From positions 124,001 to 188,000 of the forward strand of contig NZ_JACHWH010000005.1 in assembly GCF_014191255.1 (NCBI RefSeq): a stretch of DNA of 64,000 bases, read 5' to 3'. The notes beneath the pieces were generated by a model that ran no database searches, had not been told where the DNA came from, and saw only the letters and a list, made by a program, of their open reading frames with translations. The translations under genes and the position numbers were made by a program. The stretch is from Amycolatopsis bartoniae (GTDB taxonomy: Bacteria > Actinomycetota > Actinomycetes > Mycobacteriales > Pseudonocardiaceae). Shown piece by piece: positions 20,323 through 27,662 of this stretch (position 1 is its first letter; every line of letters starts with the position of its first letter).

Positions 20323-20853
20323 ATGCGTCCCTTTCCTTCGCTACGGCCGAAATCGGCGCTGCCCACGAGGCGCACGGTGCTGGCGGGCTCGGCCGCGGTC
20401 GCCGCGCTCGCCACGGTGAGCGCGGCACCGGCCGCGGCGGCCCCGCTGAGCGCGGCCGACGAGGACCTGCTCGTCCAGGTGGCCCGCACCGTGGCGGTGC
20501 TGCCCGTGCCGTTCCCGGCGTTCGACGAAACGGGGCCCGCCACCGGAAGGGCCACCCAGCCGAGGTTGTCCGCGGTGCTCGGCCGGGTGGACCCCGCCGG
20601 GCGGGCGGCGCTGGCCGACGGGCTCGGCCGGCTGCGGACGGCCGGCCCGCTCCCCGGCGAGCCGGAGGCGCTGGTCAGGGCGATCGGCCGGGTGGCGGAC
20701 ACCGCCGGGGCCCTGCCGGGGCTGACGGCGGTCGTCGCCACCGCGCTCGCCACGATCTCGTCCCGGTTCGAGCCGGGCCGCCGCCCCGCCGCCGAGCTGT
20801 GGCTCGACTACGCGCGCAGGTTCGCCGCGATGCCGGTCGGGGGTGCGAGATGA
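20323..20853 (+). CDS. Tat-exported small protein of unknown function
   Basis: This 176-residue protein carries a clear twin-arginine signal (LPTRRTVLAGSAAVAALA) with a cleavage site after APAAAA near residue 45. The mature part is a small helical domain with ADEDLLVQVARTVAVLPVPF and a conserved-looking ELWLDYARRF end. It resembles secreted small subunits that accompany oxidoreductases, but no family can be named. A good ribosome-binding site, GGAGGCAGG, precedes the ATG. The stop overlaps the ATG of the peptidase gene (ATGA), so the two are translationally coupled. Confidence 0.72.
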   Translation: MRPFPSLRPKSALPTRRTVLAGSAAVAALATVSAAPAAAAPLSAADEDLLVQVARTVAVLPVPFPAFDETGPATGRATQPRLSAVLGRVDPAGRAALADGLGRLRTAGPLPGEPEALVRAIGRVADTAGALPGLTAVVATALATISSRFEPGRRPAAELWLDYARRFAAMPVGGAR

Positions 20854-22415
20854 CGTTCTCCCGGCAGACCCACAACCAGCTGCTGCAAGGCCGTGACGAC
20901 CTGATCAGCGGCTTCGCCCAGCGCCGCGGGTTCAACGGCGCCGGTGTCGCCTACCGCGTCCGCGACGGGGAGACCACGGACGAGCCGGTGGTCGTGGTGT
21001 TCGTGACGAAGAAACGGCCGCCGGGTTTGCTGCTCGAAGAGGACCTGCTGCCGCGGCAGGTCAACGTCGGCGGGGTCAACCACGGGGTCGACGTCTTCGA
21101 AGCCGGGCCCTTCGTGCTCGGCGGGACGACGACGTTCGACCCGACGGTCGAGGCGACGCTCACGAAGAAGTACCGTCCGCTGCGCCAGGGCGGCCAGATC
21201 AGCAACATCGGGATGCAGGGCTACGGCACCCTCGGCGCGATCGTGCGCGACCTCACCGACAACTCGCCCTCGATCCTGTCGAACAACCACGTGCTGGTGC
21301 TGAACAACTCCAGCACCTCGGTCGGGCAGGCGATCACCCAGCCCTACACCGGCAGCCCCGCCGACACCGTCGCGCGCGTCACCCGTTTCGTGCCTTACAC
21401 GTTCGGCGTCACGCGGCCCAACCTCACCGACGCCGCGCTCGCGAAGCTCACCGACGACCAGGCGAAGGAGATCACCGACGCCGTCGCGGAGGACCTGATG
21501 GCGCCCTACAGCGTCGACCACCCGTGCGTCGGGCTGTTCTTCGCGGCCGATCCCACCAACTTCTACGGCGTCTCCGCGAAGATCGACAACACGCTGGAGG
21601 CCCTCGGCGCCGACCTGCTCACCCCGGAGGCGATCTACGTGCCCGGTCCGCCGGACCTCGGCGCGCCGGTCGAGAAGGTGGGCGCCCGCACCGGGTACGC
21701 CTCGTCGCGCATCCACGCGATCAACATGAAGTTCCCGGTGTTCCTGGAGATCAACGGCGGCTCGCGGATCGGCTGGTTCACCGACCTGGTCGGCACGACG
21801 CGCTTCGGCTGGCCGGGCGACTCGGGCTCGACGGTCCGGCTCGGCGGGGACGGCGAGACGCGGCTGCCGATCGACCTGGGGCTCAGCAAGTGCGAGGCGA
21901 CGAGCGCGGTGGCCTCGATGTACGACCTGCCGCTGGAGAACGACATCCCGCTCGCTGACCGCATTCGCGACCAGTTCATGGCGGCCAGCACCACCGGCAG
22001 CTTCCTGACCCAGCTGTTCTACCTGAACAACAGCGTGATCCTGGACCGGACCCAGGGCGTCGAGGCGTCGGACAGCGAGAAGGCCGGCGCGGCCAGCATG
22101 TACGACAAGTACCGGGACTTCATCGACTCGGCGCTGGCGGCGCCGGACCGCCCCGGACTGGTGGTGACCCGGGAGAACATCGACGACGCGGCGCTCGGCC
22201 TGGCCTCGTTGCAGACCCGGATGACCACCGAGGAAACCGACGCCACCAACGAGATCTTCACGTCGCTGGTGCGCCAGACCGAAGGGATGAACCACCAGCA
22301 GCTCGTGGCGTTCATGAACCGCACCGACGTGTTCGACAAGGTCTGGGACACCACCGCCGCGGTGCCGACGATCCGCGCGCTCGGTTCGCTCTACCCCGCC
22401 CACCGGCCCCGCTGA
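20850..22415 (+). CDS. Trypsin-like serine peptidase without signal peptide
   Basis: This 521-residue protein has a chymotrypsin-type catalytic triad in order: H147 (LSNNHVLVL), D194 (NLTDAALAKL) and S325 (GWPGDSGSTV). An N-terminal region of about 100 residues (VVVVFVTKKRPPGLLLEEDL) and a helical C-terminal region of about 150 residues flank it. No signal peptide or membrane helix is visible, which is odd for this fold in bacteria and suggests a cytoplasmic protein-processing role or an unusual export route. It is coupled to the Tat-exported protein upstream by an ATGA overlap and lies 12 bp before the prenyl synthase gene. Confidence 0.82.
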   Translation: MTFSRQTHNQLLQGRDDLISGFAQRRGFNGAGVAYRVRDGETTDEPVVVVFVTKKRPPGLLLEEDLLPRQVNVGGVNHGVDVFEAGPFVLGGTTTFDPTVEATLTKKYRPLRQGGQISNIGMQGYGTLGAIVRDLTDNSPSILSNNHVLVLNNSSTSVGQAITQPYTGSPADTVARVTRFVPYTFGVTRPNLTDAALAKLTDDQAKEITDAVAEDLMAPYSVDHPCVGLFFAADPTNFYGVSAKIDNTLEALGADLLTPEAIYVPGPPDLGAPVEKVGARTGYASSRIHAINMKFPVFLEINGGSRIGWFTDLVGTTRFGWPGDSGSTVRLGGDGETRLPIDLGLSKCEATSAVASMYDLPLENDIPLADRIRDQFMAASTTGSFLTQLFYLNNSVILDRTQGVEASDSEKAGAASMYDKYRDFIDSALAAPDRPGLVVTRENIDDAALGLASLQTRMTTEETDATNEIFTSLVRQTEGMNHQQLVAFMNRTDVFDKVWDTTAAVPTIRALGSLYPAHRPR

Positions 22416-22427
22416 CGGGTCCGGGGA

Positions 22428-23342
22428 ATGGACTACCAGGCCGCCGTGCGGTCGCGAATGCGCGAGCTGTGCGAGGACCTGCCGTCCGCGCTGAAGCCCG
22501 CGGTGGTGCCGTTCGTCGACCGGGCGGGCAAGGGCGCCAGGGCGGCGCTAGTCGCCGCCGCCGCGGCGGGCGGCCGAGCCGACCGGACGGAGCTCGTCCG
22601 GCTGGGCGCGATCGTCGAGCTGCTGCACCTGGCCTCGCTGATCCACGACGACGTGGTGGACCGGGCCGCCACCCGGCGGGACCTGCCCAGCGCGCACGAG
22701 CGGGTCGGCCCGGACCTGGCCCTGCTCGCGGGCACGGCCTGCGTGGCGCTGGTCGGCCAGGAGTCCGCCGACCTCGGGCCGCGGACGGCGGCCGCCGTTG
22801 CCCGCTGCACCGCGGCACTCGCGCTGGGCCAGCTGATGGACGTGGAGCGTGCCTACGACACGGGGCTGGACCTGGACGCCTACGTCGCCATAGTGGTCAG
22901 GAAGACCAGCGAGCTGTTCGTGCTGAGCTGCGTGCTCGGTGCCGGTGCCGCCGGGCGCGAGCCCGCGTTCGCGGCGGCGGTCGCGGAGTTCGCCCGGCAG
23001 CTCGGGGTGTGCTTCCAGATCGAGGACGACTGCAAGGACTTCCTGCCCGCGGGCTCGGGAAAACCCGCCGGTACGGACCACCGGCTCGGCTTCTACGGGC
23101 TGCCCACGCTGCACGCCCTGGCCGTCCGCCCCGGCGAGCTGGCCGCGCTCCTGCTCGCGCCGGAGATCGGCGACGCGGAGCTGGCCCGGATCCGGGAACT
23201 CGTGCTCGGCGCGGGTGGTCTGGACCGGGCCGTCCGGGAAGCCCGCCGCCGCCGCGAACTCGCGTTCGCCGCGCTCGCGCCGGTCGAACCGGAACCCGCG
23301 ACGGCGCTGAGAGAGGTGGCCGACGCGCTGTGGACGTTCTGA
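22428..23342 (+). CDS. Trans-isoprenyl diphosphate synthase (polyprenyl synthetase family)
   Basis: This 304-residue enzyme would condense IPP with an allylic diphosphate. Both aspartate-rich motifs are intact: DDVVD at residues 74-78 (LASLIHDDVVD) and DDCKD at about 200-204 (CFQIEDDCKD), followed by GKPAGTDHRLGFYGLPTL, the equivalent of the usual GKPTLP-type region. Length is a little below the usual 320-350. It overlaps the next gene by 13 bp. Chain length is not predictable with confidence; the residues before the first motif (IVELLHLASLIH) lack large aromatics, which would permit a longer product. Confidence 0.88.
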   Translation: MDYQAAVRSRMRELCEDLPSALKPAVVPFVDRAGKGARAALVAAAAAGGRADRTELVRLGAIVELLHLASLIHDDVVDRAATRRDLPSAHERVGPDLALLAGTACVALVGQESADLGPRTAAAVARCTAALALGQLMDVERAYDTGLDLDAYVAIVVRKTSELFVLSCVLGAGAAGREPAFAAAVAEFARQLGVCFQIEDDCKDFLPAGSGKPAGTDHRLGFYGLPTLHALAVRPGELAALLLAPEIGDAELARIRELVLGAGGLDRAVREARRRRELAFAALAPVEPEPATALREVADALWTF

Positions 23343-25231
23343 TCGCCGGTGCGGGACCGGCCGGGAGCACCGCGGCCCGGGCGCTCGCCGAAGCGGGGCT
23401 CGACGTCGTGGTGCTCGAACGGCGTGACCCGCTCCCGGAGTACCACGTCGCACTCGAACCCGGGCCGGTCCCGGGCGGTACGGCCGGGGTCGTGTTGTCG
23501 TTCGGGGACGCGCCACCGAGGCGTTTCGACGACGCGCGGGTCCAGGTGCTGCCGTACCGGGACGCGGTGCTGTCGGTGCGGGAAGCCGCGGTCGCCGCCG
23601 GAGCGCGGCTCGTCGAGGCGGAGCCCGCCCGGGTTCGGCGTGGTGACGCGGAAATCGAGGACGTCGTGCGGCGCTTCGGCGAACCCGTCGTGCTGCTGGA
23701 CGCCACCGGAGCCACCGGCGCCGGGCCCGGCCGGGGCTGGGCCACCACCGGTACCTGGCGCGGCTGCGCACTCGCGGACGAGGTGCTCACCCACCTCACC
23801 CAGCCGGGCGCGAACCTTTCCACCGTCCCGCTCGTGGTCCGGGCGGTGCCCGTGCCCGGCGGGCGCGCCACCATCACGGTCACCACCATGTCGGCCAGTC
23901 CCCTTCCCCACCAGGAGGTCGCCGCTGTGGTCCGGGGCGCCGACCCCCGGCTCGCTGGGGCGCTGCCCGTCGGCGCCCTCGTGGACCATCCGGTCAACGC
24001 CGGGTTCACCCCGGACGGGGCCACCCCGGACGGCGTGCTGACGCTCGGCGAAGCGGCGGGGCTGGTCAACCCGTTCACCGGGGACGGGATCGCCAACGCC
24101 GTCCGCAGCGGCGAGCTGGCGGCGCAGGCGGTGCTGGCGTCCCCCGGCGACGCGGAGCGCATCGCCCACGCGTACCGCCGGGGCCTGCGCTCGGCGTTCG
24201 TCGGCTACTTCCAGTCGGCCCGGCACGCGGTGCGGCACTACCACCTCGCGTGGCGGATCCTGGCGAGCTCGTCCACCTCGGAGCACCCGTTCCACCGGCA
24301 GAGCCATCGCGCGGTGCTGCTGGGCGGGGCCATGGCGCACGACAGCCTGCGGCAGCGGCGCCACCCGGACGAGGTCACGGTGTACCTCGCGCCGTTCACG
24401 CTCGCCTGCAACGAGGTCATGGTGCGGCGGATCGGGGACGAATGGCCGCTGCTCGCGATGCACACCCTCGGTGGCCGGGAACCGGTCCGGCACGCGCTGC
24501 GACCGTCCACTTTGTTCGCGGGGGCACTGCTCTCGGCGGGCGGCCACCCGGACGTCCGGCACGCCCCCGTGGCGGCCGCCATCGAGCTGGCGTTGCTCGG
24601 GGCGCTGGCGCACAGCGTGCCCGCGAGCGAGGCCGAGCCGCTCGCGCGCGGGGTCGACTGGCGGTACGCCTCGGCGGTGATCGCGGCGGACTATCTCCTG
24701 GCCACCGCCACCGAGGTCCTCACCACGACCCGCCCGGAGCTGGCGGCCGCGTTCTCGGCGTGGCTGGCCTCCCTGGTCGCGTTGCGGGCGGAGGAACGGG
24801 TCGTGCCGCTGTGGGAAAGCTTCTTCGAGTTCCCGGCCCGGACGGGAGCGCACCTGGCGGGGGCCGGCGATGCGGACGTGGCGGCGGTGCGCCGGTTGGG
24901 CCGGACGTGCGGCCGGCTGTTCCTGCTCGCGGAGGATCTCGCGCTGCTGCACGGACGGCGCTCGCGGCTGGACACGACACTGGGTGGCGCCCTCGCGGCG
25001 GGGTTGTCCGGGTTGCCGGACCTGGCGGGCACCGCCGACGAGGAGGAAATCCGGTACCGTCGGCCCGCGTTGTCGGCGGTGTGCGAGGAGTCGCTGGCGG
25101 CCGAACTGTCGGCGGCGGACCGCGCGGTGGCCGGGCTCGCCGACGCCCGCTGCCGCCGGGTGCTGAACCACTTCGCGCGCTCGCTGGCGGAGCCCGTCGC
25201 GGCGTACCGTCCGGAGGAGGTGGCCGGGTGA
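23330..25231 (+). CDS. Geranylgeranyl-reductase-like flavoprotein fused to a degenerate prenyl-synthase domain
   Basis: This 633-residue protein has an N-terminal FAD domain (GAGPAG at residues 7-12, VVVLERRD, and GEAAGLVNPFTGDGI near 240-256) of the geranylgeranyl reductase family, which saturates prenyl double bonds. From about residue 390 the sequence follows the polyprenyl synthetase helix pattern (RPSTLFAGALL, AAAIELALLGALAH, VIAADYLLATATEVL, GRLFLLAEDLALLHG). Both DDxxD motifs are gone: the first is AHSVP, and the second keeps only ED. The GTG at 23330 follows GAGAGGTGG and overlaps the active synthase gene. Inference: a reductase tethered to a non-catalytic synthase subunit. Confidence 0.75.
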   Translation: MDVLIAGAGPAGSTAARALAEAGLDVVVLERRDPLPEYHVALEPGPVPGGTAGVVLSFGDAPPRRFDDARVQVLPYRDAVLSVREAAVAAGARLVEAEPARVRRGDAEIEDVVRRFGEPVVLLDATGATGAGPGRGWATTGTWRGCALADEVLTHLTQPGANLSTVPLVVRAVPVPGGRATITVTTMSASPLPHQEVAAVVRGADPRLAGALPVGALVDHPVNAGFTPDGATPDGVLTLGEAAGLVNPFTGDGIANAVRSGELAAQAVLASPGDAERIAHAYRRGLRSAFVGYFQSARHAVRHYHLAWRILASSSTSEHPFHRQSHRAVLLGGAMAHDSLRQRRHPDEVTVYLAPFTLACNEVMVRRIGDEWPLLAMHTLGGREPVRHALRPSTLFAGALLSAGGHPDVRHAPVAAAIELALLGALAHSVPASEAEPLARGVDWRYASAVIAADYLLATATEVLTTTRPELAAAFSAWLASLVALRAEERVVPLWESFFEFPARTGAHLAGAGDADVAAVRRLGRTCGRLFLLAEDLALLHGRRSRLDTTLGGALAAGLSGLPDLAGTADEEEIRYRRPALSAVCEESLAAELSAADRAVAGLADARCRRVLNHFARSLAEPVAAYRPEEVAG

Positions 25232-25461
25232 TCGAGCCGATCGGCGCCCTCCCGGGAGCCCGTCGCGGCGCGCCGTCCGGAAGAGGTGACCGGATGATCG
25301 GGGTCGTGGGTGCCGAACGCTTCGCACACTCCGGCGGAAAGCGCTTTCTCGCGCTGGCTGGAGGAGGTGGCCCGATGATCGGGGTCGTGGGGGCTGAACG
25401 CTCCGTGCCCTCCGGCAGAAAGCGCTTTCTCGTGTGCCGTCCGGAGGAGGTGACCGGATGA
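25228..25461 (+). CDS. Small repeat-derived ORF (77 codons)
   Basis: A GTG at 25228 overlaps the stop of the fusion gene (GTGA) and opens a 77-residue frame made of repeat units 1 and 2 (each RMIGVVGAER...KRFL). Its TGA (25459-25461) overlaps an ATG at 25458 that opens the next frame through units 3-5. The ribosome-binding site GGAGGAGG is good. The product is Arg/Gly-rich with no known domain. It may be a by-product of repeat expansion rather than a real protein. Confidence 0.3.
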   Translation: MIEPIGALPGARRGAPSGRGDRMIGVVGAERFAHSGGKRFLALAGGGGPMIGVVGAERSVPSGRKRFLVCRPEEVTG

Positions 25462-25700
25462 TCGGGCTCCTGGGCGCCGAACGCTCCGCGCACTCCGCCA
25501 GAAAGCGCTTTCTCCCGCCGTCCGGAAGAGGTGACCGCGTGATCGGGCTCCTGGGCGCCCAACGCTCCGCACACTCCGCCAGAAAGCGCTTTCTCGCGCT
25601 GGCTGGAAGAGGTGACCGCGTGATCGGGCTCCTGGGCGCCCAACGCTCCGCGCACTCCGCCAGAAAGCGCTTTCTCCCGCCGTCCGGAAGAGGTGGCCGG
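25273..25700 (+). repeat. Five-unit 81-bp tandem array, each unit with ribosome-binding site, start codon and GAAAGCGCTTTC
   Basis: Units begin with CCGTCCGG or CTGGCTGG, then GGARGAGGTG, a start codon (ATG or GTG) followed by ATCGGG, a conserved GAACGCTCCGC-like stretch, and the palindrome. Palindromes lie at 25337, 25418, 25501, 25582 and 25663 (each 12 bp), so periods are 81, 83, 81 and 81 bp. A partial unit without a palindrome precedes (the fusion-gene stop and the GTG at 25228), and a partial unit forms the start of the lipoprotein gene at 25701. Because 81 is 27 codons, units 3-5 stay in the lipoprotein frame. No spacer diversity is seen, so it is not a CRISPR array. Confidence 0.9.
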
Positions 25701-26609
25701 GTGAGCAGGCTCGTCGGCGCTCTGCTGGAGGTGCTGCTGCTGGGCGGCTGCGTCACCCCGCCGCCACCGGCCGCGCCGCCGCCCGGTTTCCGGCTGCTCG
25801 CGGGCCGCTACCAGCTGGCCCGTGACCTGACGAACCCGGCGCTGGACTGGGTGCGTGCGAACGTGGGCAGCGCCCCCTCGGCGGCGGAGCCCATCGAGCA
25901 GCAGATCGCCTACACCCCCGTCGCCCACCGCTTCCGTGCCGGGGACACCGGGCGCGTGCACGACTACGTGGCGCAAGCCGCGCAGCAACGCTGGTTGCCG
26001 ATGCTCGTCGCCGCCTTCACCGAGCCCGGGCAGTGCCCCGGTCCGGACCAGGTCGCCGTGACGGACCTCGCGCGCGGGCTCGGCGGCGAGAAGGCCATCG
26101 TCGTCCTCGAACCCCGGCTCCTGACCGGCGACTGCCCCGGCGTCACGACCTACCTCGCCGCCGCTGTCCGCATCCTGCGCGCCACCGCGCCGAACGTCTT
26201 CGTCTTCCTCGACGTCTCCGGAACCGACGACCCCAGCCGCTACGCCGCCGGCCTGACCGAAGCCGGACTCGCCCAGGCCGCGGGCGTCACGCTGAACGTC
26301 GGCGGCTACACCCCCGCCGCCGAACTCGCCGCCCCCGCCCGGCGGCTCTTCGACGCCGTCTCGGCGAGCACCGGGCGCCGCGACTACTTCCTGCTCGCCG
26401 ACAGCTCACGCAACGGCGCCGCGGTGACAGGGAACTGCAATCCGCCCGGCGCGAAACTGGGCTCGCCCGGCACCTTCTCCGACGAGCCCGGCGCGCTGCA
26501 GCAGGCGTGGCTGACCGTTCCGGGGATCTCCGACGGCCCCTGCGGCACCGCGCCCGAGTCCCACCCCGGGGAGTTCGTCCCCGCACTGGCCCGGTCCCTG
26601 ACCGGTTGA
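25701..26609 (+). CDS. GH6-like lipoprotein, probably catalytically inactive
   Basis: This 302-residue lipoprotein (lipobox LLLGGC) matches the glycoside hydrolase family 6 fold in order: LPMLVAAFTEPGQC, AIVVLEPRLL, VFVFLDVSG, GVTLNVGGY, FLLADSSRNG, CNPPGAKLG and PGISDGPC. In active GH6 cellulases the first block carries the acid Asp (RDC) and the second reads EPD; here these are GQC and EPR, so two acidic residues are lost, while the SDG aspartate remains. It may bind but not cut glucan. The GTG at 25701 with GGAAGAGGTG is chosen because it alone gives a signal peptide; the frame is open upstream to the ATG at 25458, through the repeats. Confidence 0.72.
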   Translation: MSRLVGALLEVLLLGGCVTPPPPAAPPPGFRLLAGRYQLARDLTNPALDWVRANVGSAPSAAEPIEQQIAYTPVAHRFRAGDTGRVHDYVAQAAQQRWLPMLVAAFTEPGQCPGPDQVAVTDLARGLGGEKAIVVLEPRLLTGDCPGVTTYLAAAVRILRATAPNVFVFLDVSGTDDPSRYAAGLTEAGLAQAAGVTLNVGGYTPAAELAAPARRLFDAVSASTGRRDYFLLADSSRNGAAVTGNCNPPGAKLGSPGTFSDEPGALQQAWLTVPGISDGPCGTAPESHPGEFVPALARSLTG

Positions 26610-26630: not shown

Positions 26631-27662
26631 ATGAAGAAAACCACCAGAACACTGTCCACTGTGGCCACTGCCGGGCTGCTCGTCCTCGGCCTCGCCACAC
26701 CGGCGAGCGCCGCGGAGCCGGTCGCCCTGCCCGGAACGGGCCCGGCGCTGGCCGCGTTGTCGGCGCACCGCGCACCGGCGGCGCCGGCCCGCCGGATGTC
26801 CGTCACGTCCGCGGAGAACGACCTCAACGGCGACGGCATCGACGACGTGCTGACCCGGGACCGCGCCTCCACCGGAATCGACCTCTACACCGGAACCGGC
26901 GGCCTCAACGGCACTTCGACCCTCGCCGGGCCCACCCGCGTGCGCACGGCGACACCGAACCGGGTGTGGTTCGGGCAGGGTGACCTCAACGGCGACGGCC
27001 GGGCGGACATCGCGAGCATCGACGGGTCCGGCGTCATGTACGCCGCCTACAACCAGGGCACCAGCACGCCGTCGTTCGCGGCGGACGTGTCCTTCCTCTC
27101 CGGCTTCACCCCGTCGTCGCCGGTGTGCCTGGGCGATTTCGTGGGCAGTGACCCGAACAACCCGCTGGAGCCGGACGGCCGCGCGGACCTCGTCCTGAAG
27201 AACCCCAGCACCAAGGCGATCGACCTCTACGTCAACGACGGCACGGTGAACGGCAAGCCGTCCTACAGCTACCGCGGCGCCCTGCTGACGGGAGCCGACT
27301 ACGTCACCGGCATCCACCTCGCGGACCTGACCGGTGACTACTTCAAGGACATCCTGGTCACCATGACCGACGGCACGCTCTGGCTGCTGGACCTGTTCGC
27401 CGACGTCGACTCCGCCGGAAACCCCGTGGCGAAGTGGTTCCGGATCATCGACTCCGGCATGAACGCCGCCGACCACCTCCTGTTCCCCGACTTCAACCAG
27501 GACGACTACCCGGACTTCGCCGCCCGGCTGACCGCCACCGGGGAGCTGCGCGGCGTGCTGCACTCGGGAACGTGGAACCCGGCGGCGCCGGCGACCGTGT
27601 TCGACTCCGCCACCGGGCAGCTCGTGCGCTCCGGCTGGACCGGCTACGACTGGGTGTTCTGA
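26631..27662 (+). CDS. Secreted FG-GAP/VCBS repeat protein
   Basis: This 343-residue protein has a signal peptide (to ASAAEP, about residue 25) and beta-propeller-type calcium-binding repeats: DLNGDGIDDVLTRD, DLNGDGRADIAS, EPDGRADLVLK, LTGDYFKDILV and FNQDDYPDFAA. Such proteins are usually secreted ligand binders or adhesins. It lies 21 bp after the GH6-like lipoprotein with GGGGAGAG before the ATG, so they are likely cotranscribed. No enzyme domain is seen. Confidence 0.85.
   Translation: MKKTTRTLSTVATAGLLVLGLATPASAAEPVALPGTGPALAALSAHRAPAAPARRMSVTSAENDLNGDGIDDVLTRDRASTGIDLYTGTGGLNGTSTLAGPTRVRTATPNRVWFGQGDLNGDGRADIASIDGSGVMYAAYNQGTSTPSFAADVSFLSGFTPSSPVCLGDFVGSDPNNPLEPDGRADLVLKNPSTKAIDLYVNDGTVNGKPSYSYRGALLTGADYVTGIHLADLTGDYFKDILVTMTDGTLWLLDLFADVDSAGNPVAKWFRIIDSGMNAADHLLFPDFNQDDYPDFAARLTATGELRGVLHSGTWNPAAPATVFDSATGQLVRSGWTGYDWVF

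Follow-up and report, generated by a model that had tools for sequence, protein, structure and literature searches.

The window analyzed in this study is a stretch of 64,000 nucleotides (nt) of the Amycolatopsis bartoniae contig NZ_JACHWH010000005.1 (positions 124,001 to 188,000 of the forward strand; NCBI RefSeq assembly GCF_014191255.1), and coordinates are those of the window unless another locus is named. On its plus strand, a gene for an active-type trans-prenyl diphosphate synthase of 304 amino acids (aa), apparently of the long-chain type (22428..23342), overlaps by 13 nt the gene of a 633-aa fusion protein (23330..25231), which starts with GTG at 23330 and ends with a stop codon at 25229-25231. 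Domain matches, structural models, and motif tables assign to the fusion protein a flavin adenine dinucleotide (FAD)-binding domain of the geranylgeranyl reductase (GGR) superfamily and a C-terminal prenyl synthase domain that is predicted to be dead. An earlier annotation made from the sequence alone, here called the original prediction, had given the coordinates and the frame of the fusion gene exactly. Its proposals of a two-domain architecture and of an intact synthase beside and overlapping the fusion gene were confirmed as well, since the flavin domain matches GGR models, the C-terminal half matches prenyl synthases, and the neighbor matches the Pfam family PF00348 (E value of 1.4e-45) and contains both DDxxD motifs. 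Judged from sequence and models, the fusion is a flavin-binding module of the prenyl-reductase superfamily joined to a putatively catalytically dead copy of a prenyl-chain synthase.

The C-terminal domain covers residues 346-633 (24365..25228), as delimited by an AlphaFold2 (AF2) model and Foldseek. On the single fusion protein, PF00348 scored 14.6 bits (cut-off, 27 bits), and phmmer searches against sequences of known structure retrieved Rv0562 (9imq; E value of 9.2e-05) and the rice chain 5xn6_C (Os02g0668100; E value of 0.0013). A three-sequence profile of the C-terminal half matched 9imq (Rv0562) at 2.9e-14, along with a further 50 distinct sequences at E values up to 0.01. The AF2 model of residues 346-633 alone is all helical, with a predicted local distance difference test (pLDDT) score of 86.1 and a predicted template modeling (pTM) score of 0.85. 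All 50 Foldseek matches listed for this domain are prenyl synthases by title (one being an ACP-HEPS2 model), with a probability of 1.00 and template modeling (TM)-scores by query length of 0.57-0.73; the top matches were Rv0562 and E. coli octaprenyl diphosphate synthase. Structure prediction, the check named by the original prediction, thus returned an isoprenoid synthase fold that matches long-chain prenyl synthases. The motif alignment showed that both aspartate motif sites are lost. The first reads AHSVP (residues 427-431; 24608..24622), as had been noted, and the second reads AEDLA (residues 534-538; 24929..24943); the domain contains no DDxxD, in agreement with the earlier claim, and no DDxxxxD either. 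Neither aspartate-rich motif is present in any of the 12 fused domains retrieved in the genome searches described below; DDxxD was found in 0 of these 12 domains versus all 80 ordinary synthases compared (81 were extracted, and L184 was removed because it is the dead domain of the fusion genome G490 itself). At the catalytic columns of the fused domains, the Arg aligned with R38 was kept in 12 of 12, R84 and D201 (second motif) in 8 each, and every other residue in no more than 2; D74 is kept in the fusions L234 and L235, an assignment that depends on the alignment. The mean entropy was 2.06 at site 1 and 1.38 at site 2, versus 0.48 and 0.69 in the partner synthases, so that the constraint at both catalytic segments is lost in the fused domains, whereas it is higher than in the partners in the first two segments (1.30 and 1.27 versus 2.08 and 1.87). 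Taken together, the sequence and the model support a catalytically dead trans-prenyl synthase fold.

The partner synthases present the opposite picture: all 20 positions checked, both DDxxD motifs included, are kept in 12 of 12 proteins. The residues just before the first motif are Ala and Ser in all 12 partners, and Ala is found there in 70 of the 80 ordinary synthases. Short-chain synthases usually have bulky residues just before the first motif, and because Ala and Ser precede it here, we read the partners as being of the long-chain type. The best NCBIfam match of the window synthase is NF041169 (150 bits), which would make it a polyprenyl transferase packaged as cargo in a family 2 encapsulin. 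This identity was rejected, as the score lies far below the cut-off of 450 bits and the shell genes found in this genome are located elsewhere, and we consider it extremely improbable. The window genome (G000) contains at C2:25265-28270 two tandem SrpI-like encapsulin shell genes (C2:25265 and C2:26676), followed by another polyprenyl synthase (C2:27578).

The FAD domain comprises residues 1-315 (23330..24274; the end is approximate), as defined by the TIGR02032 match and the GGR tree. NCBIfam TIGR02032 ("geranylgeranyl reductase family protein") is the best flavoprotein family of the fusion, with an E value of 2.4e-18 and 66.9 bits; the match falls into two stretches, close to residues 2-34 and 234-298. 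For the entire fusion, an AF2 model based on a 10-row alignment has a mean pLDDT of 81.2 and a pTM of 0.76, and its weak stretches are residues 161-163, 333-344, 382-389, 435-440, and 625-633. In the Foldseek search with this model, ranks 1, 2, 4, and 5 were geranylgeranyl reductases (3oz2, 4opi, 4opg, and 3atq), and rank 3 was FixC. Fusions also matched LodB, GoxB, and QhpG maturases (9, 7, and 10 of 10 members, respectively), which we took to reflect the common FAD fold.

Motif alignment separated what the flavin domain has kept from what it has lost. The GxGxxG FAD-binding motif is present in all 12 fusions and reads GAGPAG in the window (residues 7-12; 23348..23365); the second FAD motif, GEAAGLVNPFTGDG (residues 240-253; 24047..24088), is also kept, with GD changed to GE. 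Lost in the window are the GGR active-site cysteine, whose column is occupied by Tyr38 (23441..23443), and the PxYxWxFP motif, which reads PLVVRAVP (residues 167-174; 23828..23851). According to the accessible parts of two articles, the active-site Cys and the YxWxFP motif occur in all GGRs reported to be active (PMC6309074), and in the Sulfolobus enzyme the Cys is essential and the motif lines the cavity (PMC10821996). The 45 best-scoring of 88 GGRs served for comparison in the motif tables; Y, W, and F were present in 45 of 45, and the final Pro was replaced by Gly in 32. The 12 fusions fall into two types. Type B consists of the window and eight relatives: no member has the Cys (the column holds His or Tyr in eight and Pro in L003), and the YxWxFP motif is absent from all nine (its Trp is found in four, its Tyr and its Phe in none). 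GxGPAG and the AGLxNPFTGxG stretch are nonetheless kept in 9 of 9, GD being replaced by GE or GG in three. Type A (L089, L234, and L235) has the active-site Cys in 3 of 3; L089 has in addition YGW with His in place of Phe, and L234 and L235, the only fusions with a complete YxWxFP motif, retain the whole reductase site (FPRDKCCGDG and YGWVFP).

These data divide the functional claim of the original prediction, namely that the window protein is a working prenyl reductase tethered to a synthase, with a partly saturated prenyl diphosphate as the product. The superfamily match, the GGR fold, and the intact site of L234 and L235 speak for it, and the proposed mechanism fits these two type A members and, by parsimony, the ancestor of the fusions. 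For the window, the label "reductase" is not supported at the sequence level, because the cysteine and the YxWxFP motif are gone both there and in the eight other type B members; the long stem of type B in the tree described below likewise argues against it. We therefore regard a working reductase in the window as unlikely. The loss of both catalytic motifs in all nine type B proteins and the GE or GG in three of them would also agree with a structural or sensory pseudo-enzyme, with or without bound FAD, whose role would be confined to regulating or anchoring the synthase, as would the fact that, in each of the two type B pairs compared, the ratio of nonsynonymous to synonymous substitutions (dN/dS) of the flavin part (0.32 and 0.31) exceeds that of every other cassette part. 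Persisting purifying selection and the retention of GxGPAG and the AGLxNPFTGxG stretch argue against this alternative, which we consider improbable to a similar degree.

The search for other proteins with the same domain pair, suggested with the original prediction, was carried out at several taxonomic levels. A strong match across the linker and the synthase-like domain was the criterion for membership; in each genome, scoring was limited to a few top candidates, and the genome samples are partly shared between the searches. (i) In the family of the window, 179 of 297 genomes had matches at 1e-12 and only eight at 2.6e-98 or better, the next being a stop-bearing piece at 1.9e-24. (ii) The order search gave 8 of 338 genomes at 1e-40, adding G1396 and G1407. 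(iii) In the class search (147 of 394 genomes at 1e-12), the window genome and G490 (7.6e-43) alone stood out. (iv) At the phylum level, 22 of 296 genomes matched at 1e-25, corresponding to the window genome and 21 weaker matches, none starting before query position 36, which we took to be ordinary synthases. (v) The families of G040 and G490 yielded matches in 1 of 3 genomes and in 48 of 297 genomes (at 1e-25), respectively, the linker being covered in the latter case in G490 only. The fusion is therefore present in 12 distinct genomes (G000, that of the window, and G026, G040, G134, G152, G178, G193, G198, G296, G490, G1396, and G1407); it is rare and scattered. In all 12, a gene for a protein resembling NARROW LEAF 1 (NAL1), the synthase gene, and the fusion gene follow each other in this order on one strand, and an inactive synthase-fold protein, as judged by sequence, is thus encoded beside an active synthase in every cassette. 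The spacings at the junctions range from -16 to +75 nt, approximate values since several starts were placed by alignment. Isolated fragments of the C-terminal domain were observed at L090 8452-8988 (G314) and L023 3224-3475 (G016, of the same genus); they are perhaps remnants of a lost cassette, and neither genome had a NAL1-like match. Among the phage records of the collection, a search for the fusion gave no match (the NAL1-like protein was not sought there); the plasmids yielded one record, with a GGR-family gene whose match extends over 26% of the fusion, and no match to the NAL1-like protein. In PADLOC, the FAD motif of the fusion gave one weak match (0.0019), and the remaining three proteins of the cassette gave none.

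A profile scan of the genome contigs with the 10-row fusion alignment, which picked up generic GGR motifs, retrieved at least 180 relatives; at the best 80 of these loci the matched GGR domain ends by model position 331, and no NAL1-like gene is near. At six of the 80, five of them in Actinomycetota, the GGR-family gene lies near a separate synthase gene. Such neighboring pairs are generally known as menaquinone genes. This adjacency adds to the case for a working reductase, and it would also be expected if the cassette were a displaced menaquinone side-chain pair, that is, a MenJ-type reductase with a polyprenyl synthase that serves menaquinone; in keeping with the latter, 10 of 10 fusions scanned matched the NCBIfam MenJ model to some degree. 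However, the window genome has another GGR-family gene (C1:700587) and synthase gene (C1:720457), 20 kb apart, and this C1 synthase (L197) groups with the ordinary synthases, apart from that of the cassette (the C1 GGR was not part of the tree). A role in menaquinone synthesis is thus very unlikely.

To follow the history of the two halves, trees were computed for each. In the tree of the FAD domains, which included 25 of the 88 GGRs, a single branch (98/90) divides the 12 fusions from the GGRs; the corresponding values are 97/88 for type A and 100/100 for type B, the stem of which measures 1.07. Since the fusions group together and L234 and L235 have an intact site, the fusion arose, most simply, once, from an intact reductase, and the flavin site of type B would have been altered afterwards. 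The synthase tree (54 rows, with 24 of the 70 ordinary rows labelled "can") places the dead domains on one side of a branch at 100/98; L234 and L235 were not included in this tree, nor in the count of the NAL1 triad and the distance test (10 cassettes each). In three pairs of relatives, the dN/dS values of the FAD and dead parts were between 0.16 and 0.32, with dS up to 1.61, near saturation, in one pair. Neither half of the fusion looks to be decaying, as far as these ratios tell, and the recurrence in 12 genomes together with these values for both halves excludes a chance or misassembled fusion. Among the six pairs of cassette parts, the evolutionary distances of the dead domain and the partner synthase showed the highest correlation (r of 0.94 for ten cassettes and 0.89 for nine, without L089).

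Two further genes precede the synthase gene in the window. The first cassette gene (20323..20853, plus strand) encodes a small protein of 176 aa (158 aa if the start is at 20377) with a twin-arginine-type signal, assigned by its RR-type N terminus, and overlaps the next gene by 4 nt. By eye, the small protein encoded before the NAL1-like gene has such an N terminus in all nine type B cassettes. The Pfam family TAT_signal matched the window protein below its cut-off of 22.7 bits (15.7 bits; E value of 0.015), and among five small proteins scanned it was below the cut-off in two and without a match in three. Six of the type B small proteins form one family. The other three (L085, L086, and L088) are 31-48% identical to each other (E values of 5e-20 to 8e-58), and their only likeness to the window protein is a 25-residue stretch in L085 (E value of 0.007); the L085 protein matches DUF6801 just above the cut-off. 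The first position of the type B cassettes (window 20323-20853; L021, L022, and L083-L088) is thus occupied by two families of small proteins without clear mutual likeness, both of the twin-arginine type. No such gene was seen at that position in the type A cassettes L089, L234, and L235. In L234 and L235, the cassette follows a gene for a 1254-aa protein with a PKD domain (Pfam) and one for a 66-aa peptide, which by eye resembles the N-terminal part of NAL1 and has no Pfam match; it adjoins what we take to be rpsP-like and trmD/rplS-like genes.

The second gene (20850..22415, plus strand) encodes a 521-aa NAL1-like protein with a trypsin fold and a C-terminal extension, identified by a profile match to rice NARROW LEAF 1 and by its triad. 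Positions 30-160 of the profile match the structures of the rice protein at 2.5e-11, and Pfam NAL1_N scored 25.9 bits on the window protein, just under the cut-off of 27. The triad His147/Asp194/Ser325 is kept in 10 of 10 proteins. Of the 297 family genomes, precisely the eight that carry the fusion also have the full-length protein (E value of <1e-200), and 46 others have weaker partial matches. Shorter NAL1-like genes, with open frames of 342 aa, occur in G074 and G170; their neighbors have no match to the synthase or small-protein models.

Downstream, the fusion gene is directly followed by a tandem array (25269-25720) of approximately 5.6 copies of an 81-bp unit. The palindrome AGAAAGCGCTTTCT is present in five of the units (exact in four, with one mismatch in one); the exact palindrome is found at 15 places in the genome, including the four in the array, and the pattern read backwards at none. 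An FG-GAP-repeat protein is encoded at 26631-27662, and a gene that looks similar by eye is present at 6656-7360 in L083, the closest relative.

Starting from what is observed directly, namely, the domains, the lost and kept residues, the fold, the cassette, and the grouping of the fusions on one branch, we consider it moderately probable that the operon product is a heteromeric prenyl diphosphate synthase, the inactive subunit of which carries a flavin module that acts on or gates the prenyl chain. The 304-aa subunit (22428-23342) would carry out chain elongation, and the C-terminal domain of the fusion would dimerize with it as its inactive partner subunit. The dead domain may hold the flavin domain beside the active site or the product exit, where it would act on the long prenyl chain during or after elongation. 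L234 and L235 would reflect the ancestral state, in which an intact GGR flavin domain would reduce part of the double bonds. In type B, including the window, the reductase cysteine and the YxWxFP cavity would have been replaced after the fusion arose, with the FAD motifs and selection maintained, and the module may now carry out an altered flavin chemistry on the chain or serve in sensing or gating its synthesis. Our probabilities for this reading and for the alternatives overlap, the working reductase and the pseudo-enzyme being narrower readings of the flavin module.

Several observations weigh against the heteromeric synthase with a flavin module. The 66.9 bits of the fusion are below the 158.8-bit cut-off of TIGR02032, and with none of the NCBIfam models listed does the fusion reach the curated cut-off. 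Apart from the top five, the 50 Foldseek matches listed for the whole fusion are mostly flavin monooxygenases and halogenases, with TM-scores by target length of at most 0.58. The window flavin domain has Tyr instead of Cys, VVRAVP instead of YxWxFP, and GE where GD is expected. In the synthase tree, the L089 partner is not firmly grouped with the other nine partners (two changes). The distance correlation is unspecific, as all six pairs gave r values of 0.70-0.94 with at most 1 of 10000 permutations as high, and plain co-inheritance fits it equally well. Finally, this reading does not account for the presence in the operon of the NAL1-like protein and, in type B, of the twin-arginine-signal protein. 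A broader scheme, which we put forward as quite speculative and less probable than either the working reductase or the pseudo-enzyme, is a hitherto undescribed export-linked prenyl system: a self-contained, flavin-modified long-chain prenyl group would be made on the heteromeric synthase and, still in the cytoplasm, be attached to the small protein exported by the twin-arginine route or be prepared for it, the NAL1-like protease would serve in maturation or quality control, and the flavin change of type B would be new and non-reductive.

Among the open-access literature matches listed, we found no report of a GGR-synthase fusion or of a fused inactive subunit, which does not prove its absence; the author of the original prediction had likewise not known of this fusion. 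The components can be compared with four known systems. Like NAL1 trypsin-fold proteins, the product of 20850-22415 has similarity to NAL1_N and a His-Asp-Ser triad; unlike NAL1, it is bacterial and has its own C-terminal extension, and its full-length form was found in the family search only in fusion genomes. For NAL1 in bacteria, the open-access literature listing contained a single review on rice. With geranylgeranyl reductases and MenJ, the fusions share the FAD fold and motifs and, in L234 and L235, the full active site; the GGR relatives seen have no synthase domain, and the window protein lacks the Cys and YxWxFP. Two unlike synthase subunits are also a feature of mint geranyl diphosphate synthase (GPPS; large and small subunits, LSU/SSU), Micrococcus HexA/HexB, and Bacillus HepS/HepT. 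The available part of PMC7839719 states that in mint GPPS and hexaprenyl diphosphate synthase (HexPPS) one subunit is catalytic and the other regulatory and that the non-catalytic subunit, as in mint GPPS and HexA/HexB, can be required and may set chain length; in contrast to these enzymes, the putative second subunit is here fused to a flavoprotein, a fusion that does not appear in that part of the article.

The closest parallel is found in rice, where, according to the accessible part of PMC9399743, the inactive GRP forms a pair with OsGGPPS1, makes this synthase more efficient, and recruits it to a GGR-containing complex; structure entry 5xn6 is titled as the GGPPS1-OsGRP heterodimer. Both systems include an inactive synthase homologue and an active prenyl synthase, and in L234 and L235 the fused GGR-superfamily domain has an intact site. 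In rice these are separate proteins of a thylakoid complex, whereas in the bacterial system the inactive subunit and the flavin domain form one polypeptide, the partner appears to be of the long-chain type, and the GGR site of the window is lost. The fusion is best read as the counterpart, within one polypeptide, of the rice GRP-GGPPS1-GGR complex. It is established that inactive synthase subunits determine chain length or direct flux, and that of rice brings the synthase to a reductase complex; with the steering subunit and a flavin module in a single bacterial polypeptide, the idea of channelling can be tested with two purified proteins. Furthermore, the intact sites of L234 and L235 and the lost sites of type B on one scaffold offer a natural comparison of a prenyl reductase turning into something else. 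Heteromeric prenyl synthases with an inactive subunit are thus already known; the novelty would lie in joining that subunit to a flavoprotein and in encoding it in one operon together with a NAL1-like protein and an exported protein.

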